Made by a program: the position numbers and the translations under genes. The notes beneath the pieces are model-generated. The model worked only from the letters and a program-made list of their open reading frames with translations, had not been told where the DNA came from and made no database searches. This document shows positions 32,650-52,303 of a stretch of 64,000 nt of DNA, piece by piece (position 1 is the stretch's first letter; every line of letters begins with the position of its first letter). Where the stretch lies: contig NZ_QPJK01000007.1 in the NCBI RefSeq assembly GCF_003337555.1, forward strand, positions 320,553 through 384,552, in the 5' to 3' direction. Origin of the DNA: Pseudorhodoferax soli (GTDB lineage: Bacteria; Pseudomonadota; Gammaproteobacteria; Burkholderiales; Burkholderiaceae_C).

Positions 32650-32681
32650 ACGGGGCCCCGAGAACACCGAAGGAGACAGAC

Positions 32682-33848
32682 ATGGAATTCGAACTCAAGG
32701 AAGAGTGGCGGATGCTCAAGGACCTCGTGGCCCGCTTCGTGCGCGAGGAGCTGCTCCCGCTGGAGCCCGCGCTGCTGCAGCGCGAGACCGAGGGCGGCGG
32801 CATCTCGCTGACGGAAGAAGAGAGCGCCCGCATCGACCGCCGCTCGCGCGAGCTGGGCCTGTGGGGGCTGGATGCGCCCGAGTCCATCGGCGGCTCCGAC
32901 CTGCCGGTGGCGGCCATGGTCGGCGTCAACGAGGAGATGGGGCACAGCATCGTGCACTACTACCTGCCGCCCGACACGCCCAACCTGCGCCTGCTCATGC
33001 TGGCGGCCACGCCCGAGCAGAAGAAGCGCTATCTGGAGCCCTATGTGCGCGGCGAGATGAAGTCGGCCATCGTGATCTCCGAGCCCGGCGCGGGCGGCGA
33101 TCCGTCCGGCCTGTCGACGCGCGCGGTGCGCGACGGCGACCACTGGGTCATCAACGGCCGCAAGATCTGGATCTCCAACCTGGAGCGGGCCGACTTCGGC
33201 ATCGTGATGGCCCGCACCTCGGGCACGCCGGGTTCGCGCGGCGGCATCTCGGCCTTCATCGTGGACAAGGGCACGCCGGGCTTCATCCCGGCCCGCAAGA
33301 TCCCCATGATCGGCGGCAGCGCCACCTGGGAGGTGGTGTTCGAGGACTGCCGCGTGCACGAGAGCCAGCTGCTGGGCGTGCAGGACCAGGGCTTCAAGCC
33401 GATGCAGGCGCGGCTCGGTGCACGCCGCGTGCAGATGGCGGCCTGGGCCATCGGCAAGGCCCAGCGCGCGCTGGACATGCTGTGCACCTATGCGCCGCAG
33501 CGCAAGACCTTCGGCCTGCCGCTGTCCGAGCGCCAGGCGATCCAGTGGTGGATCGCCGACGCCGCCACGCGCATCCACGCCACCCGGCTCATGACCTACG
33601 AATGCGCCTGGCGCATCGACCGCGGCATGGACGTGCGCACGCAGACCTCGATGGTCAAGGCCTATGCCACCGAGATGGCCTGGGAGGTGATCGACCGCGC
33701 CATGCAGACCTTCGGCGCGATGGGCATGACCAAGGAGTTGCCGCTGCAGCAGATGGCCAATGCCGTGCGCCTCATGCGCATCTACGAAGGCCCCACCGAA
33801 GTGCACCGCATGGTGGTGGCACGCAACACGCTGGCGCGGTTCCGCTGA
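32682..33848 (+). CDS. acyl-CoA dehydrogenase
   Basis: FAD-dependent alpha,beta-dehydrogenation of an acyl-CoA, 388 residues. It has the family motifs SAIVISEPGAGGDPS (near residue 128), KIWISNLERADF, GARRVQMAAWAIGKAQRAL, and near the C-terminus IYEGPTEVHRMVVAR. The Glu of YEG is the usual catalytic base of this family. A GGAGACA ribosome site precedes the ATG at 32682. It resembles the CaiA-like branch often linked to CaiB transferases, matching the transferase two genes downstream. The chain or ring of the substrate cannot be deduced. Confidence 0.92.
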   Translation: MEFELKEEWRMLKDLVARFVREELLPLEPALLQRETEGGGISLTEEESARIDRRSRELGLWGLDAPESIGGSDLPVAAMVGVNEEMGHSIVHYYLPPDTPNLRLLMLAATPEQKKRYLEPYVRGEMKSAIVISEPGAGGDPSGLSTRAVRDGDHWVINGRKIWISNLERADFGIVMARTSGTPGSRGGISAFIVDKGTPGFIPARKIPMIGGSATWEVVFEDCRVHESQLLGVQDQGFKPMQARLGARRVQMAAWAIGKAQRALDMLCTYAPQRKTFGLPLSERQAIQWWIADAATRIHATRLMTYECAWRIDRGMDVRTQTSMVKAYATEMAWEVIDRAMQTFGAMGMTKELPLQQMANAVRLMRIYEGPTEVHRMVVARNTLARFR

Positions 33849-33917
33849 CCGCCCGCCGCACGACGCGCCGGCCAACGCAGCCGGCGCGCGGGCCGTTCAC
33901 CACCGCAGGAGACAAGA

Positions 33918-34880
33918 ATGCACACGAGACGACGCGCCTTCGTCGCGGCAGCCGTGGCCTGGCCGCTGGCGCGGCTGCACGCCCAGGCCTGGCCGAGCCG
34001 GTCGATCACCATGCTCGTGCCCTCGACGGCCGGCGGCGTGGTCGACATTTCCGCCCGCCTGCTGCAACCCGGCCTGTCGACCGAGGTCGGCCAGCCCATC
34101 GTGGTCGAGAACCGGCCCGGCGGTGGCGGCCACATCGCCGCGCAGACGGTGGCCCGCGCCACGCCCGACGGCTACACGCAGCTGTACTCGGCCGGCAGCA
34201 TCCTGATCTCCGGCGTCGTGCGCAACCTGCCGTACGCGCCCATGAGCGACCTGGTGCCGGTGTGCCGCATCACCATGGGCGGTTTCCTGCTGCTGGTGCC
34301 CGCGAACTCGCCGTTCAAGACGCTGGCCGAGCTGATCGCCTTCGGCCGCGCCCACCCCGGCAAGCTCAGCTTCGGGTCGAGCAGCGTGGGCAATTCCACC
34401 CACATCGCGGGCGAGATGCTCAACCTGCTGGCCGGCGTGCAGGCCGTGCACGTGCCGTACCGCGGCAACGTGCAGTCGCTGACCGACCTGGCGGGCGGGC
34501 GCATCGACTTCGCGTTCGACAGCCGCTCGCCGGCGGCGGTGTTCCTGCGCGCCGGGCAGATCCGGCCCATCGCCGTCACCAACACCGAGCGCCAGGCCGA
34601 CTACCCGGACCTGCCGGCGATCGCAGAGCAGGCGCCGGGCTACGGCATCGAGGGCTGGACCGGGCTGTTCGTGCCCGCCAGGACGGGCCCCGACATCGTG
34701 GCCAGGCTCGGCGCCGCTGCGCAGCGCGTGGTGTCCGACCCTGCCGTGGTGCAGCGCTTCGTCACCACCGGCGGTGCGCCGCCGGCCTTCCTGGGCCCGG
34801 CCGATGCGCTGGCCTACATGCAGCTGGACCACGAGCGCACGGCGCGCGTCGTCCGGCAGGCCAACATCACGGCCGGCTGA
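33918..34880 (+). CDS. Bug/TctC-family periplasmic solute receptor
   Basis: 320-residue tripartite-tricarboxylate (Bug) receptor. It has signal peptide MHTRRRAFVAAAVAWPLARL with cleavage after HAQ near residue 23, then AWPSRSITMLVPSTAGG. The signature VVENRPGGGGHIAAQTVARATPDGYT is near residue 62 (key residues ENRPG and PDGYT). These proteins bind carboxylates in the periplasm and often lack a nearby membrane partner, as here. Placement between acyl-CoA dehydrogenase and CoA-transferase suggests it captures the acid that the operon degrades. Confidence 0.92.
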   Translation: MHTRRRAFVAAAVAWPLARLHAQAWPSRSITMLVPSTAGGVVDISARLLQPGLSTEVGQPIVVENRPGGGGHIAAQTVARATPDGYTQLYSAGSILISGVVRNLPYAPMSDLVPVCRITMGGFLLLVPANSPFKTLAELIAFGRAHPGKLSFGSSSVGNSTHIAGEMLNLLAGVQAVHVPYRGNVQSLTDLAGGRIDFAFDSRSPAAVFLRAGQIRPIAVTNTERQADYPDLPAIAEQAPGYGIEGWTGLFVPARTGPDIVARLGAAAQRVVSDPAVVQRFVTTGGAPPAFLGPADALAYMQLDHERTARVVRQANITAG

Positions 34881-34886
34881 ACGCGC

Positions 34887-36107
34887 ATGGCAACGCCTTC
34901 GCATGCGCCCCTCGCCGGCCTCAAGGTGCTCGACCTCGGCCAGATCTACCAGGGCCCCTACTGCGGCTTCCTGCTGGCCATGGCCGGCGCCACCGTGGTG
35001 AAGGTCGAGCCGCCCGGCGGCGAGGCCGGCCGCGCCCGCCGCGCCGCCACGCTGCCGCTGGCCATGCTCAACGGCAACAAGCGCGGCATCGCCCTGAACT
35101 TCAAGCATGCCGAGGGGCGGCGCCTGTTCGTGGAACTGGTGCAGCAGTTCGACGTGGTGCTGGAGAACTACGCCCCCGGCGTGATGGACCGCCTGGGCAT
35201 CGGCGCCGAGGTGCTGCGCGCCGCCAACCCGCGCCTGGTCTACGCATCCGCGTCGGGCTATGGCACCTGGGGGCCGGACCGCGACCGCCTGGCCATGGAC
35301 CTCACGATCCAGGCCACCAGCGGCGCGATGGAGGTGACGGGCTGGCCCGACCGGCCGCCCGTCAAGGCTGGCCCGGCGTTCGCCGACTTCCTGGGCGGCA
35401 CGCACCTGTACGCGGCCATCATGACGGCGTTGTACGAACGCGAGCGCACCGGCGTAGGCCGCCGGGTCGAGATCGCGATGCAGGACGCCATGTACCCGCC
35501 GATGGCCTCGAACCTCACCGTGTTCTTCGAGAACCCGCAGGCCCAGGCGCGCACCGGCAACCGCCATGGCGGCCTGGGCCTGGCGCCCTACAACGCCTAC
35601 CGCGCATCCGATGGCTACGTGACCATCATGTGCGTGACGCCCGGCCACTGGGGCAAGCTGGTGCACGCCATGGGCCGGGCCGAACTGGCGGACGACCCGC
35701 GCTACGCCGACCACGCGGCGCGCGCCGCACTCATGGAAGAGGTCGATGCGCTGGTGGAAGGCTGGACGCAACGGCACACGCGGGCCGAACTGCAGGCGCT
35801 GGCCCAGGCGCACCACTTTCCCTGCGCGCCGGTGCGCGGCCTGGCTGAGGTGGTGAACGACCCGCACCTGCATGCACGCGGCATGTTGCGGCACTGCCAC
35901 CACCCGGAGCTGGGCGACGTGGTGCTGCACAACAGCCCGCTGCGCTTCGACGGCTTCGACCCGCTGGCGCTGGTGCGCGAACCGCGGCTGGGCGAACACA
36001 CGGGTGAGGTGCTGGCCGAGTACCTGGGCATCGACGCGGCCGAACTCGGGCGGCTGGCGCAGCTGGGTGCGGTCGCCACCGTGCCGGCCGAACCGGGCGC
36101 GGCTTGA
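34887..36107 (+). CDS. CaiB/BaiF-family (class III) CoA-transferase
   Basis: 406-residue CoA-transferase that activates a carboxylate by moving CoA from a donor thioester. It starts LAGLKVLDLGQIYQGPYCG with the typical Rossmann opening, has NGNKRGIALNFKHAEGR near residue 53, VVLENYAPGVMDRLG near residue 90, and the catalytic-Asp region GPAFADFLGGTHLYAAI near residue 160 with the Asp present. It begins six bases after the Bug receptor stop. It is probably the first enzymatic step of the pathway. Confidence 0.92.
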   Translation: MATPSHAPLAGLKVLDLGQIYQGPYCGFLLAMAGATVVKVEPPGGEAGRARRAATLPLAMLNGNKRGIALNFKHAEGRRLFVELVQQFDVVLENYAPGVMDRLGIGAEVLRAANPRLVYASASGYGTWGPDRDRLAMDLTIQATSGAMEVTGWPDRPPVKAGPAFADFLGGTHLYAAIMTALYERERTGVGRRVEIAMQDAMYPPMASNLTVFFENPQAQARTGNRHGGLGLAPYNAYRASDGYVTIMCVTPGHWGKLVHAMGRAELADDPRYADHAARAALMEEVDALVEGWTQRHTRAELQALAQAHHFPCAPVRGLAEVVNDPHLHARGMLRHCHHPELGDVVLHNSPLRFDGFDPLALVREPRLGEHTGEVLAEYLGIDAAELGRLAQLGAVATVPAEPGAA

Positions 36108-39893: not shown

Positions 39894-40939
39894 GCCCGCA
39901 CGCGCCGCCACGCTGGCGGGCTGAGCTGTTCGGCTCGCCCTGGCACACGCTGCTCACGCTGGCGCTGGCCGCGGTGCTCGGCTGGGCCGGTTGGCACGCC
40001 CTCGACTGGGCGCTGCTGCAGGCCATCTTCCGGCCCGATGCCGCGGCCTGCCGGGCGCTGGAGCATGGCGCCTGCTGGGGCGTGGTGGCAGAGAAGTGGC
40101 GGCCGCTGCTGTTCGGCCGCTACCCGTTCGAGGCGCAATGGCGCCCGGCCGTGGCCACGGTGCTGCTGTCGGCCACCACGCTGCTGTCGGCCTGGCCGCG
40201 CAGCTGGCGCTGGTGGCTGGCGCCGCTGTGGCTGGCGGTGCTGGCGCTGACCGTGCTGCTGATGGGCGGCGGTGCGCTGGGCCTGGCCAGCGTGCCCAGC
40301 AACCGCTGGGGCGGGCTGCCGCTGACCATCGGGCTGGCGGTGGTGGGCCTGGCCCTGGCCTTCCCGCTCGCGCTGGTGCTGGCGCTGGCGCGGCGTTCGT
40401 CCTGGCGGGCGGCGCGTGCGCTGTCGGCGGGCACCATCGAACTCGTGCGCGGCGTGCCGCTGATCTCGGTGCTGTTCATGGCCTCCTACCTGCTGCCGCT
40501 GCTGTGGCCGGCCGGCTGGCGGCCCGACGTGCTGCTGCGCGTGCTGGCCGGACTGGCGCTGTTCGTGGCGGCCTACCTGGCCGAGATCATCCGCGGCGGC
40601 CTGCAGGCCGTGCCCAGCGGCCAGGTCGATGCGGCCATGGCCATGGGCTTGTCGCGCTGGCAGGTGCAGCGCCACATCGTGCTGCCGCAGGCGCTGCGCA
40701 TGGTGGTGCCGGCCCTGACCAACAACGCCGTGGGCACGCTCAAGGACACTTCGCTCGTGACCATCGTCGGCCTGTTCGAGCTGACCGGCGCGCTGAGCCT
40801 GGCGCTGGGCGGTGACCCGACATGGCGCCCCTTCTACCTGGAAGGCTACCTGTTCATCGCGCTCGTGTACTGGTGCATGTGCTTCGGCCTGTCGCGCTAC
40901 AGCGCCTGGCTGGAGCGGCGGCTGGCCCAGAAGCCGTGA
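39890..40939 (+). CDS. aapM: amino-acid ABC transporter permease, AapM-like
   Basis: 349-residue permease forming the channel with AapQ. It has about eight helices, TIELVRGVPLISVLFMASYLLPLL, and the EAA loop AAMAMGLSRWQVQRHIVLPQA near residue 245 (cut here as AAMAMGLSRWQVQ). The GTG start at 39890-39892 overlaps the AapQ stop by GTGA. The AapP ATPase that normally completes this operon does not follow. The next gene is a sigma-54 activator on the other strand. Confidence 0.9.
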   Translation: MSPHAPPRWRAELFGSPWHTLLTLALAAVLGWAGWHALDWALLQAIFRPDAAACRALEHGACWGVVAEKWRPLLFGRYPFEAQWRPAVATVLLSATTLLSAWPRSWRWWLAPLWLAVLALTVLLMGGGALGLASVPSNRWGGLPLTIGLAVVGLALAFPLALVLALARRSSWRAARALSAGTIELVRGVPLISVLFMASYLLPLLWPAGWRPDVLLRVLAGLALFVAAYLAEIIRGGLQAVPSGQVDAAMAMGLSRWQVQRHIVLPQALRMVVPALTNNAVGTLKDTSLVTIVGLFELTGALSLALGGDPTWRPFYLEGYLFIALVYWCMCFGLSRYSAWLERRLAQKP

Positions 40940-41152
40940 ACGGATTCATCGCGCCCACGACGGGGTGCGGCGGGTCGCAGGCGTAGGCGCAGGCCGCCGC
41001 GCTGGCTGGTGCCAGGGCAAGGACTGCAACGCCCGCATGCGGCTTGTCGCGCCCCGGCCCGCAGGGCGAGGCCCAGGGCGCAGCCATGGCGCTGGCAGCT
41101 CGCGCTTGCGGGCCTCGCGTGGGCGCGAGGGATTCGTTGACCGCTTCTTGGA

Positions 41153-42754
41153 TCACGCCAGGAGCTTGTAGAGGTAGGAGCGCGAGATGCCGAGCCGCTC
41201 GGCCGCGCGCTTCTTGTTGCCGCCGCAGTCGGCCAGCGTCTTCAGGGCCGCTGTGCGTTCGTGGTCCTTGAGCCGCGCGGGCTCCTCGCGCCGCGGCGCC
41301 GCCTCGGCCTGGGGCACAGCGCCACGGCCGAAGGCCTCCAGCGTGAGCCGCTCGGGCGGCGAGAACACCAGCGCCTCCTCGATGCGGTGGCGCAACTGGC
41401 GCAGGTTGCCGGGCCAGGGCTGGTCCGCCAGATGGCGCGCCACACCGGCGTCGATCTGCGGCACGGCGCGGCGGTTGCGCTGGCAGAAGGCTTCCACGAA
41501 ATGCGCCAGCAGCGCCGGGATGTCCTCCAGCCGATGGCGCAGCGGCGGCACCTGCAGCGTCACGCCGCTGATGCGGTAGAAGAGGTCGTGGCGGAAGGCG
41601 CCGCTGGCGATGAGCGCGCCGATGTCGCGGTGCGTGGCCGACACCAGCCGAAAGCTCAGGCGCTTGGCGGCATGGCTGCCCAGCCGCTCGGCCACGCGCT
41701 CCTCGAGCACGCGCAGGAGCTTGATCTGCACATCCATCGGGATGTCGCCCACCTCGTCGAGGAACAGCGTGCCCTCGTTGGCCATCTCGAACTTGCCGGC
41801 GCGGCCCTGCTTGGCGCTGCCCGTGAAGGCGCCGGCCGCATGGCCGAACAGTTCGGACTCCACCAGGCTGCCGGGCACGGCCGCGAGGTTCAGGCTCACC
41901 AGGGCCTGCCCGGGCCGGCCCAGCGCATGGATGGCGCGCACCACGAGTTCCTTTCCGGTGCCGCTCTCGCCCTGCACGAGCACGGGCACGTCGAGCCGGG
42001 CCACGGCCTGCACTTCCTCGCGCAGGCGCTGCATGGCCTGGCTCTCGCCCACGAGTTCGGCCACCGCGCCGCGGGTTCCGCGCAGGCCGTCGAGCTCGCG
42101 GCGGTAGAACTCCAGCTGCGTGCGCAGCTGCTGCATCTCGGCGGCCATCTGGGCCACCGCCTCGGTGTCGCGGAACATGACCTGGCCCACCGCGCCGATG
42201 ACCTGGCCATCGCGCCGCACCGGCCGCCGGTTCACCACGCGCGTGACGGCATTGCCGAACTCCAGCGGCTGGCCGATCTCGGCCTTGCCCGACGCGACCA
42301 CGGCACGCAGCCGCGAGTTGCGGATCACCTGCTCCACGGGCTTGCCCGCGCCGCCACCCGGCTGCAGGCCCAGGAACTTCTCGTGCACGGGGCTCACGTA
42401 GCGCATGGTGCCGGTGTGGTCGGCCACCGTGATGCCCTGGTAGGGGTCGGAGAGGATCTGCTCGAAGATGTCGAAGGCGAACGGCACGGCCGCGACGAAG
42501 TCCAGCAGCGTGGCGCCCGCGTCGGCCGGGCGCAGCAGCACGATCTCCAGGCCATCGGCACGCAATGCGGTGGCGATGCCCGGCCCCTGTGGCAACGGCA
42601 GTTCGAACAAGGTGCGGTCGCCCGCGCGGGCCAGTGCCGCGGCCAGGGCCCGCTGCACGGCGTCGCCGGCCGCCAGGCCCAGCGCGGCGACCACGGCGCC
42701 ATGGCGCCGCACAAGCACGCCCAGGGGCGCGCTGGAAATCTGTTCTTCAGGCAT
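41153..42754 (-). CDS. sigma-54-dependent transcriptional activator with PAS sensor domain
   Basis: 533-residue enhancer-binding protein. Residues 1-100 are a variable input region. A PAS domain (DPYQGITVADHTGTMRYVSP) spans about 105-215, followed by a coiled-coil linker (EMQQLRTQLEFYRREL). An AAA+ domain at about 240-465 has Walker A GESGTGKE and Walker B TLFLDEVGDIP. The C-terminal Fis-type helix-turn-helix is KRAAERLGISRSYLYKLL. The sigma-54-contact loop reads GAFTGS instead of the usual GAFTGA. It is divergent from the thioesterase-carboxylase operon, which has a -24/-12 promoter, so it is its likely activator. Confidence 0.92.
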   Translation of the reverse strand: MPEEQISSAPLGVLVRRHGAVVAALGLAAGDAVQRALAAALARAGDRTLFELPLPQGPGIATALRADGLEIVLLRPADAGATLLDFVAAVPFAFDIFEQILSDPYQGITVADHTGTMRYVSPVHEKFLGLQPGGGAGKPVEQVIRNSRLRAVVASGKAEIGQPLEFGNAVTRVVNRRPVRRDGQVIGAVGQVMFRDTEAVAQMAAEMQQLRTQLEFYRRELDGLRGTRGAVAELVGESQAMQRLREEVQAVARLDVPVLVQGESGTGKELVVRAIHALGRPGQALVSLNLAAVPGSLVESELFGHAAGAFTGSAKQGRAGKFEMANEGTLFLDEVGDIPMDVQIKLLRVLEERVAERLGSHAAKRLSFRLVSATHRDIGALIASGAFRHDLFYRISGVTLQVPPLRHRLEDIPALLAHFVEAFCQRNRRAVPQIDAGVARHLADQPWPGNLRQLRHRIEEALVFSPPERLTLEAFGRGAVPQAEAAPRREEPARLKDHERTAALKTLADCGGNKKRAAERLGISRSYLYKLLA

Positions 42755-42773
42755 ACACGGAGACACAGCGAGG

Positions 42774-42785
42774 ACAGTGAACTGT
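42774..42785. promoter_or_regulatory. candidate upstream activator site
   Basis: ACAGT-GA-ACTGT, a short dyad about 70 bp upstream of the -24/-12 promoter and just upstream of the activator gene start. The position fits an enhancer site for the sigma-54 activator. The arms are short, so confidence is low. Confidence 0.3.
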
Positions 42786-42840
42786 AGCCATGGAAGACAT
42801 TTTCGCCAGCAACACGGGCGACAGCGCCGCGGGAGACGCC

Positions 42841-42858
42841 TTGGCACGGTCGCTGCAA
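42841..42858 (+). promoter_or_regulatory. sigma-54 (-24/-12) promoter of the carboxylase operon
   Basis: TTGGCACGGTCGCTGCAA has GG at -24 and GC at -12 with exactly ten bases between them, and TGGCAC matches the -24 consensus. The predicted transcription start falls at about 42868, immediately before or at the thioesterase ATG (42869). The first message would then be nearly leaderless, unless translation begins further in. Confidence 0.7.
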
Positions 42859-42868
42859 TACAAGGTGC

Positions 42869-43291
42869 ATGACAAGCACTCCGCCCTCCCCCGATGCGAT
42901 CAGCTACTTCGGCATCGAAGTGCCCTTCATGCAGCACATCGGCCTGCGCCCGCTGCTGCTGGACAGCGACCGCTGCCACACCCTGCTGGCCATGCGGCCC
43001 GACATCGTCAACAGCCGCGGCGACATCCATGGCGGCACGCTCATGAGCGCGTTCGACTTCACGCTGAGCGGGGCAGCGCGCGCGCACGACCCCGAGCGCC
43101 TGGGCGTGATCACCGTGGACATGACCACGCACTTCTACGAGCCCGCACGCACCGACCTCACCGTGATCGGCCGCTGCACGCGGCGCGGCAGGTCGCTGGC
43201 GTTCTGCGAGGGCGAGATCGTCGACACGGCCGGCACCGTGGTGGCGGTCGCGCGCGCCGTCTTCAAGCTGGTCGTGCGCCAGCCCGCCTGA
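42869..43291 (+). CDS. PaaI-type hotdog-fold thioesterase
   Basis: 140-residue acyl-CoA thioesterase. The hotdog core is shown by MQHIGLRPLLLDSDRC, NSRGDIHGGTLMSAFDFTLSGAA (active-site region DIHGGTLMS near residue 52) and GVITVDMTTHFYEPA. It would release CoA from a pathway acyl-CoA or clear dead-end thioesters. It is the first gene of a four-gene operon. The ATG at 42869 lies right at the predicted sigma-54 transcription start. A later Met (near residue 21) cannot be excluded as the true start. Confidence 0.82.
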   Translation: MTSTPPSPDAISYFGIEVPFMQHIGLRPLLLDSDRCHTLLAMRPDIVNSRGDIHGGTLMSAFDFTLSGAARAHDPERLGVITVDMTTHFYEPARTDLTVIGRCTRRGRSLAFCEGEIVDTAGTVVAVARAVFKLVVRQPA

Positions 43292-43325
43292 CACCCATCC
43301 CAACACGACAACACCGGAGACTCCC

Positions 43326-46300
43326 TTGAACAAACTGCTCATCGCCAACCGCGGCGAGATCGCGCTGCGCGTGCAGCGCGCCGCGCGCGACCTCGGCATC
43401 GCTACCGTGGCCGTCTATGCCCAGGACGACGCCGCCGCGCGCCACCGCCTGCTGGCCGACGAGGCCCATGCGCTGGCCGGCAGCGGCCCCGCCGCCTACA
43501 TCGACATCGCCGCCATGCTGGCCGCGGCCCGCGCCACGGGCTGCGATGCCGTGCACCCGGGCTACGGCTTCCTGAGCGAGCGCGCCGACTTCGCCCAGGC
43601 CTGCGCGGACGCCGGCATCCGCTTCGTCGGGCCCACGGTGGAGCAGCTCGCGCTGTTCGGCGACAAGGGCCGCGCGCTGCAGCTGGCGCGCAGCTGCGAG
43701 GTGCCCGTGATGCCGGCCACGGCGGGCGCGGCCACGCCGGAGCAGATCGCGGCCTTCTTCGACGCCCAGGGAGGCACCGGCATCGTGATCAAGGCCGTGG
43801 GCGGCGGCGGCGGGCGCGGCATGCGCGTGGTGAACCGCCGCGAAGACCTGGAGCAGGCCTACGCGCGCTGCCGCTCCGAGGCCGCCAGCGCCTTCGGCGT
43901 GGACGCGCTCTACGCCGAGCGCCTGGTGGTCCGCGCGCGCCACATCGAGGTGCAGATCGCCGGCGACGGCGAACAGGTCGTGGCGCTCGGTGAGCGCGAT
44001 TGCACGCTGCAGCGGCGCTTCCAGAAGCTCGTGGAGATCGCGCCCAGCCCGGTGCTGTTGCCCGCGCTGCGCGAGCGCATCGTCGGCGCGGCGCGGCTGT
44101 TGGCCCAGCGCGTGCAGTACCGCAGCCTCGGCACCTTCGAGTTCCTGGTCGAGGAGAACACGGCCGGCGCGCAGACCGGCTTCGTCTTCATCGAGGCCAA
44201 CCCGCGGCTGCAGGTGGAGCACACGGTCACCGAGCAGGTCACGGGGGTGGACCTGGTTGCGCTGCAGCTGGGCCTGGCGGCCGGCCGCAGCCTGCGTGAA
44301 CTGGGCCTGGACCCGGCCGCACCGCCACAGCCACGCGGCTTCGCGATCCAGGTGCGCGTGAACGCCGAGGCCAGCGACGCCCAGGGCCAGGCCCGGCCCG
44401 CGCACGGCCGGCTCGAGCGCTTCGAACTGCCGGCCGGCCCGGACGTGCGCGTGGACACCCACGGCAGCACCGGCTATGCGCCGCCACCCAGCTTCGACAC
44501 GCTCTTGGCCAAGCTCATCGTGACCAGCCAGAGCAGCCGGTTCGGCGACGCGGTGCGGCGGCTGCAGCGCAGCCTGGCGGAGTTCCGCATCGCCGGCATC
44601 GCGACCAACCTGGACCTGCTGCGCGCGCTGGTGGCGCGCCCCGACTTCGCCGCGCAGGACGTGCACACGCGCCACTTCGAGGCCATCGCGCCCGAACTGC
44701 TGGCGGCCGCCGCCGCCATCGCCGAGGCCGAGCGCGCACGCGATGCGGCGCTGGGCGTGGCCAGCGCCGCCACGCCCGTCGCCGCCGCCCCAGCCGAGCA
44801 GGCCGCACCGGCCGGCACGCTGGCCGTGCGCGCGCCACTCAGCGGCCGGGTGGTCGAGGTCTCGGTGGCGCCGGGCGCGCTCGTGCAGCCGGGCCAGGCC
44901 GTGGCCGTGCTGGACGCCATGAAGATGGAGCACAGCGTCGCCGCCACGGCCAGCGGCCGCGTGCTGGCGGTGCAGCTGGCACCCGGCGCGCAGGCGGCCG
45001 AGGGCCAGATCCTGGTGCTGCTGGAACCGGTGGAAGGCGATGCGGCCGCCGTCCAGACCACCGAAGCGCTGGACCCGAACGCCATCCGCCCCGACCTGCA
45101 GCGCGTGCTGGACCGCCATGCCCCGCTCTACGACGCGGCCCGCCCCGAGGCCGTGGCGCGCCGGCGCGCACGCGGCCAGCGCACGGCCCGCGAGAACCTG
45201 GCCGACCTGGTCGATGCCGACAGCTTTGTCGAGTACGGCGCGCTGGCGCTGGCCGCGCAGGCCAGCCGCCGCAGCCAGGCCGACCTGATTGCCAACACGC
45301 CGGCCGACGGCCTCATCACCGGCATCGGCAGCATCAACGGCGCGCTCATCGACAAGACCCGCACGCAGAGCGCCGTGATGGCCTACGACGCCACCGTGCT
45401 GGCCGGCACCCAGGGCAAGCGCAACCACATCAAGACCGACCGCATCGTCGAGGTGGCGCTGCGCGACGAACTGCCGCTGGTGCTGCTGGCCGAAGGCGGC
45501 GGCGGGCGGCCCGGCGACGTGGACTTTCCCTCGGTCTCGGGGCTCTACCAGCCCTCGTTCGCGGCCTTCGCCGACCTCAGCGGCCAGGTGCCCGTGGTCG
45601 GCGTGGTGTCGGGCCGTTGCTTTGCGGGCAACGCGGCCTTCCTGGGCTGCTGCGACGTGATCATCGCGGACCGCTCGGTCAACATCGGCATGGCCGGGCC
45701 GGCCATGATCGAAGGCGGCGGCCTGGGCATCTACCGCCCCGAAGACGTGGGCCCGGCGCCCGTGCAATACGCCAACGGCGTGATCGACGTGCTGGTCGAC
45801 AACGAGGCCCAGGCGGTGCACGTGGCCAAGCACTATCTCTCGATGTTCCAGGGGCCGGTGGCCCAGTGGAGCGCGCCCGATGCGCTGCAGCTGCGTCAGG
45901 TGGTGCCCGAGAACCGGCTGCGCGTGTACGACACGCGCCGCGCCATCGAGGGCATCGCCGACAGCGGCAGCGTGCTGATGCTGCGCGGCGGCTTCGGCCT
46001 GGGCATCCACACGGCGCTGGCGCGCGTGGAGGGCCAGCCCGTGGGCATCATGGCCAACAACCCGCACCACCTGGGCGGTGCCATCGACGCCGACGCGGCC
46101 GACAAGGCGGCGCGCTTCATGCAGCTGTGCGATGCGCATGGCCTGCCCATCGTCTCGCTGATCGACACGCCCGGCTTCATGGTCGGACCCGAGGTCGAGG
46201 CCAAGGCCCAGGTGCGCCATGTCTCGCGCATGTTCCTGGTGGCGGCCAAGCTGCGCGTGGCGCTGCTGGCCGTGACGCTGCGCAAGGGCTACGGCCTGGG

Positions 46301-46634
46301 CGCCATGGCCATGGCCGGCGGGGGCTTCCGCTCGGCCAGCTTCACCGTCTCCTGGCCGACGGGCGAGTTCGGGCCCATGGGGCTGGAAGGCGCGATCACG
46401 CTGGGCTTCAAGAAGGAGTTGGAGGCCGTGCCCGACGGCCCCGAGCGGCGCGCGCTGTACGACAGCCTGGTGGCCAAGGCCTACGAGCGCGGCCACGCGA
46501 TCTCGACCGCCGCGGCGGTGGAGATCGACGCCGTGATCGACCCGGCGCAGACACGCCAGTGGATCGCCAAGGGCATCGCCTCGGCCAGGCTGCGCGGCCT
46601 GCGCGCACGCCGCGGCTTCGTGGACGCGTGGTGA
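43326..46634 (+). CDS. single-polypeptide biotin-dependent acyl-CoA carboxylase (BC-BCCP-CT fusion)
   Basis: 1102-residue enzyme combining all carboxylase parts. Residues 1-445 are biotin carboxylase (KLLIANRGEIALRV, ATP-grasp VGGGGGRGMRVV, EANPRLQVEHTVTEQ). Residues 495-570 are a biotin carrier with DAMKMEH, biotinylated Lys at about 533. Residues 590-1102 are the carboxyltransferase (ARGQRTARENLADLVD, MAGPAMIEGGGLGIYRPEDVGP, DTPGFMVGPEVEAKAQVRH). Most bacterial acyl-CoA carboxylases split these over two or more genes; single-chain forms are a known minority. The start is a TTG at 43326 after ACCGGAGA. The substrate is an unknown acyl-CoA. Confidence 0.9.
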   Translation: MNKLLIANRGEIALRVQRAARDLGIATVAVYAQDDAAARHRLLADEAHALAGSGPAAYIDIAAMLAAARATGCDAVHPGYGFLSERADFAQACADAGIRFVGPTVEQLALFGDKGRALQLARSCEVPVMPATAGAATPEQIAAFFDAQGGTGIVIKAVGGGGGRGMRVVNRREDLEQAYARCRSEAASAFGVDALYAERLVVRARHIEVQIAGDGEQVVALGERDCTLQRRFQKLVEIAPSPVLLPALRERIVGAARLLAQRVQYRSLGTFEFLVEENTAGAQTGFVFIEANPRLQVEHTVTEQVTGVDLVALQLGLAAGRSLRELGLDPAAPPQPRGFAIQVRVNAEASDAQGQARPAHGRLERFELPAGPDVRVDTHGSTGYAPPPSFDTLLAKLIVTSQSSRFGDAVRRLQRSLAEFRIAGIATNLDLLRALVARPDFAAQDVHTRHFEAIAPELLAAAAAIAEAERARDAALGVASAATPVAAAPAEQAAPAGTLAVRAPLSGRVVEVSVAPGALVQPGQAVAVLDAMKMEHSVAATASGRVLAVQLAPGAQAAEGQILVLLEPVEGDAAAVQTTEALDPNAIRPDLQRVLDRHAPLYDAARPEAVARRRARGQRTARENLADLVDADSFVEYGALALAAQASRRSQADLIANTPADGLITGIGSINGALIDKTRTQSAVMAYDATVLAGTQGKRNHIKTDRIVEVALRDELPLVLLAEGGGGRPGDVDFPSVSGLYQPSFAAFADLSGQVPVVGVVSGRCFAGNAAFLGCCDVIIADRSVNIGMAGPAMIEGGGLGIYRPEDVGPAPVQYANGVIDVLVDNEAQAVHVAKHYLSMFQGPVAQWSAPDALQLRQVVPENRLRVYDTRRAIEGIADSGSVLMLRGGFGLGIHTALARVEGQPVGIMANNPHHLGGAIDADAADKAARFMQLCDAHGLPIVSLIDTPGFMVGPEVEAKAQVRHVSRMFLVAAKLRVALLAVTLRKGYGLGAMAMAGGGFRSASFTVSWPTGEFGPMGLEGAITLGFKKELEAVPDGPERRALYDSLVAKAYERGHAISTAAAVEIDAVIDPAQTRQWIAKGIASARLRGLRARRGFVDAW

Positions 46635-46639
46635 GCGCC

Positions 46640-49090
46640 ATGGCGACGCAGGGAGACAGCATCGAACAAGCGCCGGACCCGGCCCGGCTGGCGTTGCGCG
46701 GCCTGCGCGTGCTGGAGATCGGCACCGGGCCGGCGCTGGCCTACACGGGCAAGCTGTTCGCGGACTTCGGCGCCGAGGTGGTCAAGGTCGAGGCCCTGGG
46801 CGCGGACGCCTGGGAGCGCATGCCGCCGCTGCTGGACGGCCCGGAGCCGCGCAGCGCCTTGTGGGCCTGGCTGCACACCAACAAGCGCAGCGTGACGGCG
46901 GACCCCGCGCAGGACGCCGCCTGGCTGCAGCAGCTGGCGCAGACCTGCGACGTGGTGCTGGACGCGCGCGCCCTCGACGAAGGCCTGGCGGTGCTCGAAC
47001 GGCCCATCGCCGGCGCGCAGCCCGTGCCGGTGGAGATCGTCTTCACCTGGTTCGGCGAGGACGGGCCCTACAGCCACTACGCAGGCTCCGAAGCCGTGTG
47101 CCGGGCACTCTCGGGCGCGGTCTTCAACAGCGGCCCCGTGGAGGGCCCGCCGCACATGCCGCACGAGTTGCAGGCGGGCATCGCCGCCGGCCTGGTGGCC
47201 TTCTCGGCCGCCGTGGCGGCCTGGACCGGCCGCGCGGACGGCAGCCGCCGCTACGTGCTCAGCGTGCACGAGGCCGTGTTCGGCACCGTGGAGATGGAGG
47301 CCGGCATGGTGCAGGATGGCCGCCACGCGCCGCGCCTGGGCGTGAACCGCTTCTGCGGCACGCATCCGACCGGCATCTATGCGACAGCGCAGGGCTGGAT
47401 CGGCATCTTCACGCACACGCTGGCGCAGTGGGGCGCCCTGTGCGAGGCCATCGGGCGGCCCGAACTCGCGCAGGACCCGCGCTACGCCAACGGCGCCGAA
47501 CGCATGGCGCGGGCCGACGAGATCGACGCCATGCTGCGCGCCGCGCTGCTGACCCGCACGGCGCAAGCGTGGTTCGAGGAGCTCGGCGCGCGCAAGCATC
47601 CCACCGTGCTGGTGCCCACCATGGCCGAACTGCTGGCGCAGGACGTGCACCGCGGGCGCCACGCCTTCGTGCCTGTGACGGCGGGCGCCGCGCGCTGCGA
47701 AGGCCCCACCGTGCCGCTGCGCCTTGGCGCGGCCGGCCCGCTGCGCGGTGGTGCGGCGCCCACCCGCGGTGCCGACGACGCGCACTACCGCGGCGCGGGG
47801 CTCCTGCGCATGCCGACGCGCGCCGCGGGCACGGCGCAGCGCCTGCCTTTGGCGGGCATCACCATCGTCGACCTCACCATGGGCTGGGCGGGCCCGCTGG
47901 CCGCGCGCACGGCCGCCGACCTGGGAGCGGAGGTCATCAAGGTCGAGAGCGCCGTCTACCCGGACTGGTGGCGCGGCGCGAACTTCACCGAGGAGTTCTA
48001 CCGCGAGCGGCTGTACGAGAAGAATTCCAACTTCAACCTCATGAACCGCAACAAGCGCGGCATCACGCTGGACCTGGCGCGTGCCGAGGGCCGGCAACTG
48101 CTGCTGCAGCTCGTGGCCCAGGCCGATGCGGTGATCGAGAACTACTCGGCGGAGGTGCTGCCCAAGCTGGGACTGGACGACGCCGCGCTGCGCGCCGTCA
48201 ACGAACGCCTGGTCATGGTCTCCATGCCGGCCTTCGGCATCGGCAACGCCTGGAGCGACACGCGCGCCTACGGCGGCACGCTGGAGCAGGCCACCGGGCT
48301 GCCGCTGTACACCGGCCATGCGGACGGGCCGCCGGCCATGACCTCGTACGCCTACGGCGATCCGGTCGGCGGGCTCAACGCGGGCGCGGCTTTGCTGCTG
48401 GCGCTCCACGTGCAGCGCGAGACCGGGCGCGGCATGCAGCTGAACCTCTCGCAGGTCGAGGCCATGCTGCCCATGGCCGCGCCCTTCGTGCTCGCGCAAT
48501 CGGTGCACGGCGCGGTGCCCCCGCGCACGGGCAACAGCCACCCGTTGCACGCCCCGCATGGCTGCTGGCGCTGCGCCGGGCCGGACGACTGGATCGTGGT
48601 GAGCGTGCGCGACGATGGCCAATGGCAGGCGCTATGCAGCGTGCTCGACCGGCCGGACCTCGCGTCCGATGCCGGCCTCGCGCAGGCGCAGGGCCGCCTC
48701 GCGCAGCAGGGGCGGCTGGACACGGCGATGGCGGCCTGGGCCGCGGCGCGCGGCGCCGACGCGGCCATGCAGCAGCTGCAGCAGGCCGGCGTCAGCGCCG
48801 GCGTGGTGCGCTCAATCCCGCGCCTCATGGACGACCCGCACCTGCATGCGCGCGGCTTCTGGCAGCGGCTGGAGCGCGCGCACGTGGGTGCCTACCTGAG
48901 TGGCAGCACGCCATTCCGCGCGGACGGCCGGCCGCTGCCCATCCGCCAGGTGGCGCCCACGCTGGGCGAGCACACGGCCCAGGTGTTGGGCGAGCGGCTG
49001 GGCCTCACGGCCGCGCAGCTCGATGCACTGGAACAGCAAGGCATCACCGGCCGCAGTGCGCGGCCCCGGACCGGCCGCGCCGCGGCCTGA
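46640..49090 (+). CDS. tandem-fused CaiB/BaiF CoA-transferase (two class III domains)
   Basis: 816 residues made of two CaiB/BaiF domains in one chain. Domain 1 (about 15-390) starts LRGLRVLEIGTGPALAYTGKL. Domain 2 (about 404-790) starts LPLAGITIVDLTMGWAGPL and has NRNKRGITLDLARAEGR and VIENYSAEVLPKLG. At the site of the catalytic Asp, domain 2 has YGDPVGGLNAG (Asp near residue 574). Domain 1 has PHELQAGIAAG, with Glu (near 176) instead of Asp. The fusion may mimic a homodimer with only one working site. I use the ATG at 46640, which has GGTGAG upstream; a GTG at 46631 overlapping the carboxylase stop is the alternative. Confidence 0.88.
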   Translation: MATQGDSIEQAPDPARLALRGLRVLEIGTGPALAYTGKLFADFGAEVVKVEALGADAWERMPPLLDGPEPRSALWAWLHTNKRSVTADPAQDAAWLQQLAQTCDVVLDARALDEGLAVLERPIAGAQPVPVEIVFTWFGEDGPYSHYAGSEAVCRALSGAVFNSGPVEGPPHMPHELQAGIAAGLVAFSAAVAAWTGRADGSRRYVLSVHEAVFGTVEMEAGMVQDGRHAPRLGVNRFCGTHPTGIYATAQGWIGIFTHTLAQWGALCEAIGRPELAQDPRYANGAERMARADEIDAMLRAALLTRTAQAWFEELGARKHPTVLVPTMAELLAQDVHRGRHAFVPVTAGAARCEGPTVPLRLGAAGPLRGGAAPTRGADDAHYRGAGLLRMPTRAAGTAQRLPLAGITIVDLTMGWAGPLAARTAADLGAEVIKVESAVYPDWWRGANFTEEFYRERLYEKNSNFNLMNRNKRGITLDLARAEGRQLLLQLVAQADAVIENYSAEVLPKLGLDDAALRAVNERLVMVSMPAFGIGNAWSDTRAYGGTLEQATGLPLYTGHADGPPAMTSYAYGDPVGGLNAGAALLLALHVQRETGRGMQLNLSQVEAMLPMAAPFVLAQSVHGAVPPRTGNSHPLHAPHGCWRCAGPDDWIVVSVRDDGQWQALCSVLDRPDLASDAGLAQAQGRLAQQGRLDTAMAAWAAARGADAAMQQLQQAGVSAGVVRSIPRLMDDPHLHARGFWQRLERAHVGAYLSGSTPFRADGRPLPIRQVAPTLGEHTAQVLGERLGLTAAQLDALEQQGITGRSARPRTGRAAA

Positions 49091-49115
49091 AGACACACAA
49101 CCCAAGGAGACCGAG

Positions 49116-50111
49116 ATGAAACAAGCCCATCCCCCCGCCCGTCGCCGGACACTGCAGCTGGCGCTCGCGCTGGCCTGCGCCGCTGCGCTGCCGGCGCATG
49201 CCCAGGACAGCTGGCCGAGCAAGCCGATCCGCATGATCGTGCCCTTCCCGGCCGGCTCCTTCACCGACACCGTGGCGCGCGTGATGTCCGACACCCTGGG
49301 CCGCGCGCTGGGCCAGCCCGTCGTCGTGGAGAACAAGGTCGGCGCCAATGGCGTGATCGGCGTGTCGGAGGCCGCGCGCTCCGCGCCCGACGGCTACACG
49401 CTGCTGCTGACCAACTCCAGCAGCATCACGATCAACCCGCAGCTCTACCGCAAGCTCAGCTACAAGACCAGCGACCTGGCGCCCGTGACCATGGTGCTGG
49501 AGGCGCCCTTCATCCTCACGGCCAACCCCGAATGGGCGCAGAAGAACGGCATCGCCACGCTGGCCGACCTGGTGCAGTACGCGCGCCGCAACCCGGGTGC
49601 CATCAGCTACGGCTCGCCCGGCGCGGGCAACATCGCCCACCTGAGCTACGCGATGCTGAACAACCGCAGCAAGGTGAACACCACGCACGTGCCCTACAAG
49701 AGCACGGCGCAGGCGCAGCTGGCGACCATCGCGGGCGAGCTCAACAGCTCCTTCGACGTGCTGACGGCCGTGCCGCACATCCAGGCCGGCAAGCTCAAGG
49801 CACTGGCCGTGACCTCGCCGCAGCGCATCGCGCAGCTGCCGGATGTGCCGACCATGGAACAGGCCGGCATCGCCGACTTCCATGTCGCCTTCTGGATCGG
49901 CCTGCTGGCGCCCGCCGGCACGCCGCCGCAGATCGTCGCCAAGCTCAACACGGCCGCCCAAGGTCTCTTGAACGACGCCAAGGCCAGGGCCGCCCTCAGT
50001 GCGCAGGGCGAACTCGTGATGCGCGAGCCGTCTGCCTTCGCCAAGCGCATTGCGGCCGAGGTGCCGGCCTGGGGCGCGGTGATCCAGGCGGAGGGCATCG
50101 CGCTGGATTGA
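49116..50111 (+). CDS. Bug/TctC-family periplasmic solute receptor
   Basis: 331-residue Bug receptor: Sec signal with cleavage after AHAQ near residue 29, mature start DSWPSKPIRMIVPFPAGSFTD, and the family signature VVENKVGANGVIGV...PDGYTLL. It is the last gene of the carboxylase operon, 25 bp after the CoA-transferase, with a GGAGA ribosome site. It should bind the carboxylate substrate or product of the pathway. No TctA/TctB membrane subunits are present. It is a different protein from the other Bug receptor in the window (33918-34880). Confidence 0.92.
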   Translation: MKQAHPPARRRTLQLALALACAAALPAHAQDSWPSKPIRMIVPFPAGSFTDTVARVMSDTLGRALGQPVVVENKVGANGVIGVSEAARSAPDGYTLLLTNSSSITINPQLYRKLSYKTSDLAPVTMVLEAPFILTANPEWAQKNGIATLADLVQYARRNPGAISYGSPGAGNIAHLSYAMLNNRSKVNTTHVPYKSTAQAQLATIAGELNSSFDVLTAVPHIQAGKLKALAVTSPQRIAQLPDVPTMEQAGIADFHVAFWIGLLAPAGTPPQIVAKLNTAAQGLLNDAKARAALSAQGELVMREPSAFAKRIAAEVPAWGAVIQAEGIALD

Positions 50112-50139
50112 GTCCAGCGCCATCGTTCATTTGCATGAT

Positions 50140-50160
50140 GCGGCCCCCAGGCGGGGCCGC
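50140..50160. terminator. GC-rich hairpin after the carboxylase operon
   Basis: GCGGCCCC (50140-50147) and GGGGCCGC (50153-50160) form a perfect 8-bp stem with loop CAGGC. No T-run follows, so it may act as a weak or rho-assisted end, or as a 3'-end stabiliser. A second dyad, GCGCTGG/CCAGCGC (50100-50120), spans the stop codon. Confidence 0.45.
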
Positions 50161-50206
50161 GCACACTCCGTCACGCTTTGCAACATCCATGCGAGGAGGA
50201 GTGACC

Positions 50207-52303
50207 ATGACGAACGGTGTTCCCACAAAAGCTGCGGACCGCAGCCCCCTTTCCAGCCGCCTGCGCTGGGTGTTGACCAGTCTTTGCGCGGCAGCGGCGC
50301 TGGCTGCCTGCGGCGGAGGCGGCGGCGACGACAACCCCGAGCCGGAACCCGAACCCCTGCCACCCGTGCCGGTCGCCACGACGCTGAGCGGCACGGCCGC
50401 CACCGGGGCGCCGTTCGCCGGCGCTGCGCTGCAGGTGACCGATGCCAGCGGCGCGACCGTCTGCGACACGACCACGGCCTCCGACGGCACCTTCAGCTGC
50501 ACGCTGGCACCCACCGTGGCGCGGCCGCTGGTGCTGCGCGCCGTCAAGGACGACCAGGTGCTCTACAGCGCCACGGCGACCACGGGCGATGTGCGCGCCA
50601 ACGTCACGCCGCTGACGACCATCATCACCGCGCGGCTGGCGCCCAACGGTGATCCGTCCAAGCTGGCCGCCTCGCCCCAGTCGGTGACGGCCGCCGCGCT
50701 GCAGGCACAGTCGGCCGCCCTGATCGCCGCATTGCAACCGCTGCTCACCGCGCTGGGCCTGACGATCGACCCGCTCGCCGGTGCACTGACGGCCGATGGC
50801 AGCGGGCAGGACAAGCTGCTCGACAGCATCTCCGTGACCGTGCAACCCAGCGGCACGGCAGCCAACATCGAAGTCACGGTCAAGACCACCCCGGCCAGCG
50901 CAGGCGCGCAGCCGGAGCCGCTCAAGTTCAGCAGCAGCGACACGGCCCTGCCGACGGTTTCCGCGGCCGCTGTGGCTGCGCTGGCGCCGGTGCCCGCGCC
51001 TTCCAAGGTGGCCGACCTGTTCGCGCGGCTGAATGCCTGCTACGCGCTGCCACTGACGCAGCGCGTGGACAGCGCCACCAGCGACACGACCAGTGCCACC
51101 GGCACCGCCGGCAACGTGAAGGCGGCGGTGTGCCGTGGCCTGTTCCAGAACAGCGACCCAGCCAGCTTCGTCTCCAACAAGGCGGGCGTGGGCCGCAACG
51201 CCAACAACGGCGGGGCCTTCGCCAGCCTGTTCCGCTCCGGCGCCACGGGCCTGCAATGGACCGCCGGCGAGGTGGAGTTCTTCCGTGCCAACGGCGACAT
51301 GATCGTCACCTACAAGTGGGTGGACAGCGCCGGCAACCAGGACTTCGACCAGATCGCCGCGCATGCCGATGCCGACGGCACGCTGCGCCTGGTGGGCAAC
51401 AGCAACACCTACCCGGTGACGATCCGCCCCTATTCGGAAGACCGCGAGCTGCTCAACACACCGGCGTTCAGCTACTACACCACGGGCTACAACATCCAGA
51501 TCGACAACCGGACCACGAACGGCCAGCCGGTCTTCAGCAAGGTGCTGGTGACCACGCCGATTGGCCTGACGTTGACCATGCTGCCGACCGCCGGGCTGTC
51601 CTACCTCGTGATCGCCCCGGACGGCGTGACGCCCACCGGCTCGCCCGTGCTGCGGCTGGCCGCCGCATACCGCGACCAAGCGCAGGCCGGCAATCCGCAG
51701 GAGAAGGAGAACCTGGTCTACACCGCGCCGCAGTACACCGACGCGCAGATTGCCGCGCTGGACAACAACGGTGTCTGGACCACCGAGTTCTTCCATGCCG
51801 ACACCAGCGTCGCCAATGTCGTGCAGTACTACCGCACGGTGCGGCGGGCCGAGACCATTGGCGAGATCCGCACCACCCGCGTGTTCGCGGAACTGACGCC
51901 TGCGCTGCGCACGGAGCTCATCACGGAGTCGCAGGCCAATGGCTACGTGCTGTTCGACACGCCCGAGGTGGCCTTCATCGACACGGAAGGCGGCGGCGAC
52001 GGCTGGCGCGTTCCGAGCGGCGCCCTCGCGCCCACCTCGGTCGGCATCCTGGGCCGCGCGCCGTTCGGCAGCACCACCGCGGGCCAGAGCGGCGCGCGCT
52101 ACAACGACACCGTGGGCGTGGCCAGCACAGCACGCAAGACCACGATCTTCTGCTCGGCACAGACCGTGTCCGACATGCACTGCGATGCCGGCGGGCAAGG
52201 CCGCTACGCCGCAGGCACCACCGCCAACCTGCTCGAGCTGTGGGCCCGCAGCCCCAAGCAGATCGAGGTCAGCAAAAAGGCCGCGCTGTACAAGCTGCAG
52301 TGA
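50207..52303 (+). CDS. large secreted lipoprotein of unknown function
   Basis: 698 residues. The N-terminal signal ends in the lipobox LAAC at about residue 36, followed by a Gly/Asp tract and a Pro-Glu spacer (DNPEPEPEPLPPVPV), then a short beta domain (residues 57-130, LSGTAATGAPFAGAALQVTD) resembling a carboxypeptidase-regulatory or SdrD-B-like fold. The rest is beta-rich with few recognisable motifs and four spaced Cys. It looks like a surface or periplasmic lipoprotein. A GAGGAGGAG ribosome site and a strong terminator bound it, so it is a single-gene unit. No function can be assigned. Confidence 0.82.
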   Translation: MTNGVPTKAADRSPLSSRLRWVLTSLCAAAALAACGGGGGDDNPEPEPEPLPPVPVATTLSGTAATGAPFAGAALQVTDASGATVCDTTTASDGTFSCTLAPTVARPLVLRAVKDDQVLYSATATTGDVRANVTPLTTIITARLAPNGDPSKLAASPQSVTAAALQAQSAALIAALQPLLTALGLTIDPLAGALTADGSGQDKLLDSISVTVQPSGTAANIEVTVKTTPASAGAQPEPLKFSSSDTALPTVSAAAVAALAPVPAPSKVADLFARLNACYALPLTQRVDSATSDTTSATGTAGNVKAAVCRGLFQNSDPASFVSNKAGVGRNANNGGAFASLFRSGATGLQWTAGEVEFFRANGDMIVTYKWVDSAGNQDFDQIAAHADADGTLRLVGNSNTYPVTIRPYSEDRELLNTPAFSYYTTGYNIQIDNRTTNGQPVFSKVLVTTPIGLTLTMLPTAGLSYLVIAPDGVTPTGSPVLRLAAAYRDQAQAGNPQEKENLVYTAPQYTDAQIAALDNNGVWTTEFFHADTSVANVVQYYRTVRRAETIGEIRTTRVFAELTPALRTELITESQANGYVLFDTPEVAFIDTEGGGDGWRVPSGALAPTSVGILGRAPFGSTTAGQSGARYNDTVGVASTARKTTIFCSAQTVSDMHCDAGGQGRYAAGTTANLLELWARSPKQIEVSKKAALYKLQ

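Follow-up and report, generated by a model that had tools for sequence, protein, structure and literature searches.

Little is known, to our knowledge, of what single-chain bacterial acyl-CoA carboxylases act on in the cell. According to an excerpt of the report on it, a characterised long-chain acyl-CoA carboxylase (LCC) acts on acyl-CoAs from C2 to C16, and its Km for palmitoyl-CoA is far below that for acetyl-CoA; the excerpt describes such enzymes as rare and proposes a role in carbon and nitrogen metabolism (PMC6491548). The window described here, a 64,000-nucleotide stretch of Pseudorhodoferax soli DNA, encodes a carboxylase with the same single-chain domain order and the same AMKM biotin motif as LCC (PDB 4rcn); here the gene has a tandem CoA-transferase and a sigma-54 activator for partners. 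The propionyl-, methylcrotonyl- and geranyl-CoA carboxylases (PCC, MCC and GCC) share the same chemistry of biotin carboxylase (BC), biotin carboxyl carrier (BCCP) and carboxyltransferase (CT) parts, although, unlike the window enzyme, they consist of two subunits.

Class III CoA-transferases commonly use dicarboxylyl-CoA donors. In the heterodimeric benzylsuccinate CoA-transferase (PDB 9fn0), one half carries the catalytic Asp and the other does not. The window protein has both halves fused, and it is linked to a biotin carboxylase instead of benzylsuccinate genes. The DMSP CoA-transferase/lyase DddD has a similar tandem CaiB architecture, with the catalytic Asp in its second half. The transcarboxylase of Propionibacterium acts with its CoA-transferase. 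It likewise joins a CoA-transferase to biotin-dependent carboxyl transfer, and the Cupriavidus form of the operon also has two carboxyltransferases; by contrast, the window biotin enzyme retains an ATP-dependent biotin carboxylase.

The original prediction, made from the window sequence, had not recognised this gene set as a described pathway, and no description of the combination was found in the open-access literature searched, which omits most subscription papers. The operon is apparently undescribed, and each of its enzymes falls in a known family. On balance, we lean towards reading it as a sigma-54-controlled, self-contained catabolic module for one extracellular carboxylic acid, in which the unit probably attaches CoA to the acid and then adds CO2.

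Gene layout and the single-chain carboxylase

The window sits on contig C7 of an 8.16-Mb genome assembled in 30 contigs. At 41153-50111 it holds a divergent sigma-54 activator and four co-directional genes, with the following features:

41153-42754, minus strand: sigma-54 activator, 533 aa, with a weak PAS sensor, AAA+ and Fis-type HTH, and a GAFTGS loop
42841-42857, plus strand: -24/-12 sigma-54 promoter element TTGGCACGGTCGCTGCA, one mismatch to the consensus TTGGCACGNNNNTTGCW
42869-43291, plus strand: hotdog-fold thioesterase, 140 aa, first operon gene, lineage-specific
43326-46634, plus strand: single-chain acyl-CoA carboxylase, BC-BCCP-CT, 1102 aa, TTG start (Pfam and 4rcn match)
43329-44681, plus strand: biotin carboxylase part, aa 2-452 (PF00289, PF02786, PF02785)
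44826-45020, plus strand: biotin carboxyl carrier part, aa 501-565 (PF00364)
44922-44924, plus strand: biotin Lys533 in DAMKMEH
45162-46574, plus strand: carboxyltransferase part, aa 613-1083 (PF01039, E 9e-72)
46640-49090, plus strand: tandem class III (CaiB/BaiF) CoA-transferase, 816 aa (PF02515, two stretches)
48359-48361, plus strand: catalytic Asp574 of the CoA-transferase, C-terminal half
49116-50111, plus strand: Bug-type periplasmic binding protein (TctC family), 331 aa (PF03401, E 4.5e-67)

The Pfam domains bear out the gene identities that the original prediction had assigned to the thioesterase, the BC-BCCP-CT carboxylase, the tandem CoA-transferase and the Bug protein. Gaps within the operon are 34, 5 and 25 nt, and alternative GTG starts of the CoA-transferase overlap the carboxylase stop. 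A scan of 40000-51000 found neither a sigma-70-type promoter nor a terminator-like site, and the gene called next in this direction (50366-52303) has, by eye, no obvious operon link. Against three relatives from the same genus, all five genes have dN/dS between 0.08 and 0.29; purifying selection acts on all of them.

The single chain of the carboxylase runs from BC through BCCP to CT and matches 4rcn from end to end (1053 bits, residues 3-1082 against 4-1071). Its CT part scores 614 bits against 4rcn and 585 against 5fif, compared with 217 for the 12S transcarboxylase, 201 for the best PCC beta, 138 for MCC beta and 133 for GCC beta. The AMKM motif is present, and K533 is invariant in 16 aligned sequences (window included). 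Domain order and scores identify the protein as an LCC-type single-chain acyl-CoA carboxylase, a member of a known enzyme family. A two-subunit PCC, MCC or GCC was rejected, since the enzyme is one chain in BC-BCCP-CT order and its CT scores lie far nearer LCC; the same scores set it apart from the propionyl-, methylcrotonyl- and geranyl-CoA types, which the original prediction had named as the known substrates to be distinguished. A long-chain preference like that in the LCC excerpt, if shared, would argue against a short-acid substrate (PMC6491548). The structures 5fif and 5h80 are titled only 'Carboxylase'. We take both to be of Deinococcus origin, and a D. radiodurans plasmid homologue of the window carboxylase is paired with an AMP-binding protein.

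The tandem CoA-transferase

Pfam recognises two class III domains in the CoA-transferase (PF02515, E 3e-158 for the whole protein). The best NCBIfam matches, to the models for succinate-glutarate, formyl-CoA and mesaconate CoA-transferases, all fall far short of the model cut-offs. The C-terminal half finds 9fn0_B, benzylsuccinate CoA-transferase, as its best PDB match (208 bits, nearly whole length), and the catalytic Asp falls in register. When 43 N-terminal and 43 C-terminal halves (37 operon proteins and six other tandem homologues) are aligned together, the catalytic column holds D in 43 of 43 C-terminal halves and in none of the 43 N-terminal halves, which have A, G, S or T there; three of 46 proteins were excluded from this count, L288 and L128 as lacking the N-half region and L123 for a gap. 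Two other assignments were rejected on this alignment: that both halves are catalytic, and that an acidic residue found in most N-terminal halves is the nucleophile, a residue that falls in another column. Near MPHELQAG in the N-terminal half, a few columns before the catalytic one, the Cupriavidus and other tandem homologues compared have Asp, and the window's own genus has Glu or Pro. The anatomy suggests a non-catalytic N-terminal partner, the whole being a heterodimer joined into one chain.

The likeness of the C-terminal half to benzylsuccinate CoA-transferase, which acts on a dicarboxylate, would also suit a pathway run in reverse, in which a dicarboxylic or branched diacid is imported, loaded with CoA and decarboxylated by the CT onto biotin; the closest non-LCC structure to the CT, the 12S transcarboxylase, moreover scores slightly above PCC beta. 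We consider this distinctly unlikely. Biotin-dependent decarboxylases usually do without an ATP-dependent biotin carboxylase part, whereas each of the 16 aligned sequences has a complete one joined to its CT, and no membrane decarboxylase subunit was recognised by eye in the list of genes around the operon.

At contig C2, 304547-308447 (8532-12459 of locus L122), the genome encodes a second tandem CoA-transferase (41%) together with an adjoining stand-alone carboxyltransferase; ABC-transporter-like genes, judged from their sequence starts, lie on both sides. No single-chain carboxylase is among the called genes there. The tandem CoA-transferase therefore has partners other than the single-chain carboxylase, which is a point against the module.

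Conservation and predicted sigma-54-type control

Five of the six genomes of the window's own genus, window included, have the carboxylase and the CoA-transferase, and the four relatives fetched all show the order activator, thioesterase, carboxylase, CoA-transferase, Bug. Beyond the genus, the tandem CoA-transferase occurs in 33 of 60 sampled Cupriavidus genomes, and the region was fetched from all 33 (L258-L289 and L112). In 32 of these loci (L276 and L288 with partial matches) the order is divergent activator, stand-alone carboxyltransferase, carboxylase, CoA-transferase, Bug, at identities to the window of 78-80% for the carboxylase, 63-69% for the CoA-transferase and 52-65% for the activator. 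Across 29 Cupriavidus loci (406 pairs), the protein distances of the five genes run in parallel, with correlations of 0.87-0.95, a figure that partly reflects shared species history. The exception is C. metallidurans CH34 (L281), which has carboxylase, CoA-transferase and Bug only; the activator and the stand-alone carboxyltransferase were not found at this locus, a point against the preferred reading. Upstream, where the two genes are missing, lies a gene (L129, 11260-12168) that we take to resemble a Tn402-type transposition protein, and the CH34 operon may have been decapitated by a transposon.

The flanks of the unit are not shared. Among called genes outside it in 32 loci, the commonest family, another Bug protein, appears in eight loci and the next in five, which speaks for a self-contained unit. 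Two explanations of the grouping were rejected: a chance neighbourhood, by synteny, unshared flanks and promoter conservation; and a recent mobile insertion in the window's genus, as both flanks stand beside the operon in four of five relatives. The downstream flank of G003 lies on two contigs, and G001, without the operon, retains only part of its downstream flank.

The original prediction had called for a search for synteny across Burkholderiales. Conserved order was found, in two genera and not across the order. No carboxylase above 64% identity turned up in 54 relatives outside the genus, and in the two with the closest full-length carboxylases (G016 and G017, 62%) the other four proteins were not found in the fetched DNA. 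A draw of 300 genomes of the order, with only the best few candidates per genome scored, gave seven in which a CoA-transferase matches across both halves with 490 bits or more. In five of them it is linked to the carboxylase (G000, the window genome; G193, taken to be a Cupriavidus; G090; G274; and G244): divergently in G090, 32 nt apart in G274, and on the same strand with an ABC transporter between in G244. The two genes are also divergent in Haematobacter. In G304 they lie on different contigs, and G040 has no full-length carboxylase among the matches listed. A third genus with the full five-gene order was not found in the 60 relatives and 300 genomes, which again counts against the module. 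A scan of genome contigs with generic peptide patterns returned, among the matches listed, mostly distant carboxylases (best 63%) and no locus of the operon clade.

Control by sigma-54 is suggested by both the activator and the promoter. The activator has the expected AAA+ domain (PF00158, E 3e-59), AAA lid (PF25601) and HTH_8 (PF02954). Its sigma-54 contact loop reads GAFTGS, not GAFTGA; of 37 orthologue translations 36 have this reading, and the remaining one (L276) is partial. The original prediction of a PAS-type activator holds for the AAA+ domain, with the contact loop and the PAS domain (PF00989, E = 0.038) weaker than stated. In one relative from the same genus (L051, 12558-13681), the activator matches only at residues 1-316 and 495-533, possibly through an internal deletion.

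The element TTGGCACGGTCGCTGCA is the better of only two sites in the 64-kb window on both strands with at most two mismatches when GG and GC are held fixed. With a looser 16-base pattern there are 27 sites where 15.7 would be expected, so that the promoter is weak on sequence alone and its support comes from conservation. All four relatives fetched from the genus have CTGGCACGGTCGCTGCA at the promoter position. An element with at most three mismatches (GG and GC required) is present in 33 of 37 intervals between activator and first gene (31 from Cupriavidus, one from G193, four from the genus relatives, and the window's own); 278 of 7400 mononucleotide shuffles reached that level. The four exceptions are L258, with a short interval and no site; L273 and L289, with four mismatches each; and L112, whose empty interval left its 200 shuffles nothing to score and which has a four-mismatch site under a consensus starting with T only. 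The Cupriavidus sites (30 loci, at most four mismatches) lie 103-109 nt 5' of the same internal Met of the first gene in 29 cases and at 96 nt in one. In the window's genus, the GC of the -12 box stands 16 nt before the thioesterase ATG in five of five copies. The transcription start expected from the -12 box falls about 1 nt before this ATG (window 42841-42871); the thioesterase message would be nearly leaderless, or there would be a later start. This near-absent leader is a further point against the module. Conservation of the element and of the divergent activator nevertheless supports, at the sequence level, sigma-54 control of the operon, as originally predicted, and by these comparisons the five genes form a conserved, regulated unit.

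The first gene of the operon differs between the two genera. The window thioesterase (PF03061, E 3e-13; TIGR00369, E 9e-14; best PDB 3dkz, 138 bits) matches the PaaI and YciA models weakly. In Cupriavidus its place is occupied by the stand-alone carboxyltransferase, and no match to the window thioesterase was found in the Cupriavidus loci at the cut-off used. Since Cupriavidus has another carboxyltransferase there, the thioesterase does not belong to the core, and the thioester release that the original prediction had counted as a step of the pathway is not supported as a core step. The Cupriavidus protein is PCC-beta-like (best PDB 8pn8, 246 bits) and 27-28% identical to the single-chain CT; its homologue in the window genome (57%, C2:306951-308447) lies directly beside the second tandem CoA-transferase. 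It is conceivable, if highly improbable, that in Cupriavidus the single-chain CT and the stand-alone one share a single biotin arm and move CO2 between acyl-CoAs, while the fused CoA-transferase exchanges CoA between the product and the acid coming in. Such a transcarboxylase/CoA-transferase cycle would use ATP only to prime. The window's genus would then be derived, a thioesterase having replaced the second CT, and would spend ATP on each turn.

The Bug protein has an orthologue at 60-69% identity in all 33 Cupriavidus loci, and its paralogues in the window genome reach at most 44% among the matches listed. Of 259 Bug candidates in the genome, 150 were scored and all are matches, so that the genome has at least 150 Bug proteins versus eight TctA permeases, none of the latter on contig C7. 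These numbers weaken the case for transport by this Bug, a point against the module. Uptake through the Bug, as the original prediction had it, is no more than plausible and is the weakest step of the mechanism.

A role in lipid or polyketide metabolism has been weighed against the catabolic reading. The LCC-type enzyme would make carboxylated long-chain acyl-CoAs, CoA-transferase and thioesterase would trim lipids, and the Bug would be a bystander. The end-to-end similarity to LCC and the PaaI and YciA matches of the thioesterase fit this proposal. We regard it as very improbable, given that sigma-54-type control is conserved, that the Bug is co-inherited in every Cupriavidus locus with the CoA-transferase, and that no gene around the unit is conserved in more than eight of 32 loci.

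Proposed activation and carboxylation of an extracellular acid

Single-chain carboxylases outside the operon clade offer a view of the company that such enzymes keep. Of 50 such loci examined, 22 have a CoA ligase (15) or a class III CoA-transferase (seven) no more than 200 bp away on the same strand, a pattern that supports activation of an acid with CoA followed by its carboxylation. Five of these 22 (L133, L215, L217, L218 and L221) had supplied search seeds. In seven more loci the ligase or CoA-transferase is farther off or on the other strand, and in 21 none was found nearby, which is a point against the module. The remaining 524 kb of this DNA contain 12 genes of these kinds (0.023 per kb). 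The 50 loci are a selection: L100 and L102 were excluded, shorter duplicates (e.g. L085-L091 and L104) were counted once, and a few are partial (L125 and L126 at contig ends; L146). The flank is about 1.5 kb or less in 15 of them. Genes were called by a simple codon-usage script, which placed none beside the carboxylase in L135, L136 and L147 and few in some others, e.g. L127, so that the neighbour lists of such loci are incomplete.

Parts appear to be exchanged around a core that activates and carboxylates, which is the main argument for the mechanism. In C. campinensis, the CoA-transferase beside the carboxylase is replaced by a homologue of an annotated AMP-binding protein of Haematobacter. 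The uptake system differs as well, with a Bug in the window and Cupriavidus and an oligopeptide-type ABC transporter in Haematobacter and G244. Neighbour contexts vary between lineages, and the substrate is therefore not deducible from them.

In the mechanism that we propose, the Bug would bind the acid outside the cell, and the fused CoA-transferase would load CoA onto it through the Asp of its C-terminal half. The CoA donor could be succinyl-CoA or the carboxylated product itself. The LCC-type enzyme, whose domains are all present, would then carboxylate the acyl-CoA with ATP and bicarbonate via its own biotin. The carboxylated acyl-CoA is expected to enter central metabolism directly, as no further enzyme is conserved in the unit. 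The thioesterase may have an accessory role, releasing CoA from thioesters that stall or build up in excess, and the divergent activator would sense the acid or a derivative and drive the -24/-12 promoter. CoA activation followed by biotin-dependent carboxylation, the sequence of steps in the original prediction, thus stands as the likeliest reading.

The carboxylase could instead serve to make the CoA donor. Acetyl- or propionyl-CoA would be carboxylated, the CoA-transferase would pass CoA to the acid from this product or from succinyl-CoA formed out of it, and genes elsewhere would degrade the acid. The use of dicarboxylyl-CoA donors by class III CoA-transferases agrees with this scheme, as do the three distant NCBIfam models and, as far as the excerpt goes, the C2 to C16 range of LCC (PMC6491548). 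However, 15 of the 50 other loci pair the carboxylase with a CoA ligase, which needs no CoA donor, and we hold the scheme to be unlikely.

For the preferred reading, activation and carboxylation of an imported acid, the inducer, the CoA-transferase substrate and the carboxylase substrate should be one compound, which makes the question directly testable. The operon is compact, regulated and self-contained in cultivable Cupriavidus, e.g. C. necator N-1 (plasmid pBB1). The single-chain carboxylases found beside a ligase or CoA-transferase further suggest that part of the family serves acid catabolism and not lipid synthesis.

Other members of the family show further arrangements. In five genomes (G007, G010, G024, G032 and G034; loci L043-L047), a protein is 62-64% like the BCCP-CT part of the window carboxylase (the CT part in G034), and the DNA fetched shows no biotin carboxylase match fused to it; split and fused forms thus coexist in the family. 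The window genome also has a carboxylase paralogue (58%) at contig C9, 296608-299868 (L049); to either side, less than 60 bp away, stands a homologue of AMP-forming CoA ligases. Elsewhere in the window, at 31810-36107, SDR-like, acyl-CoA dehydrogenase-like, Bug-like and single CaiB-type genes, named from their sequence starts, stand in a row and possibly form another acid cluster.
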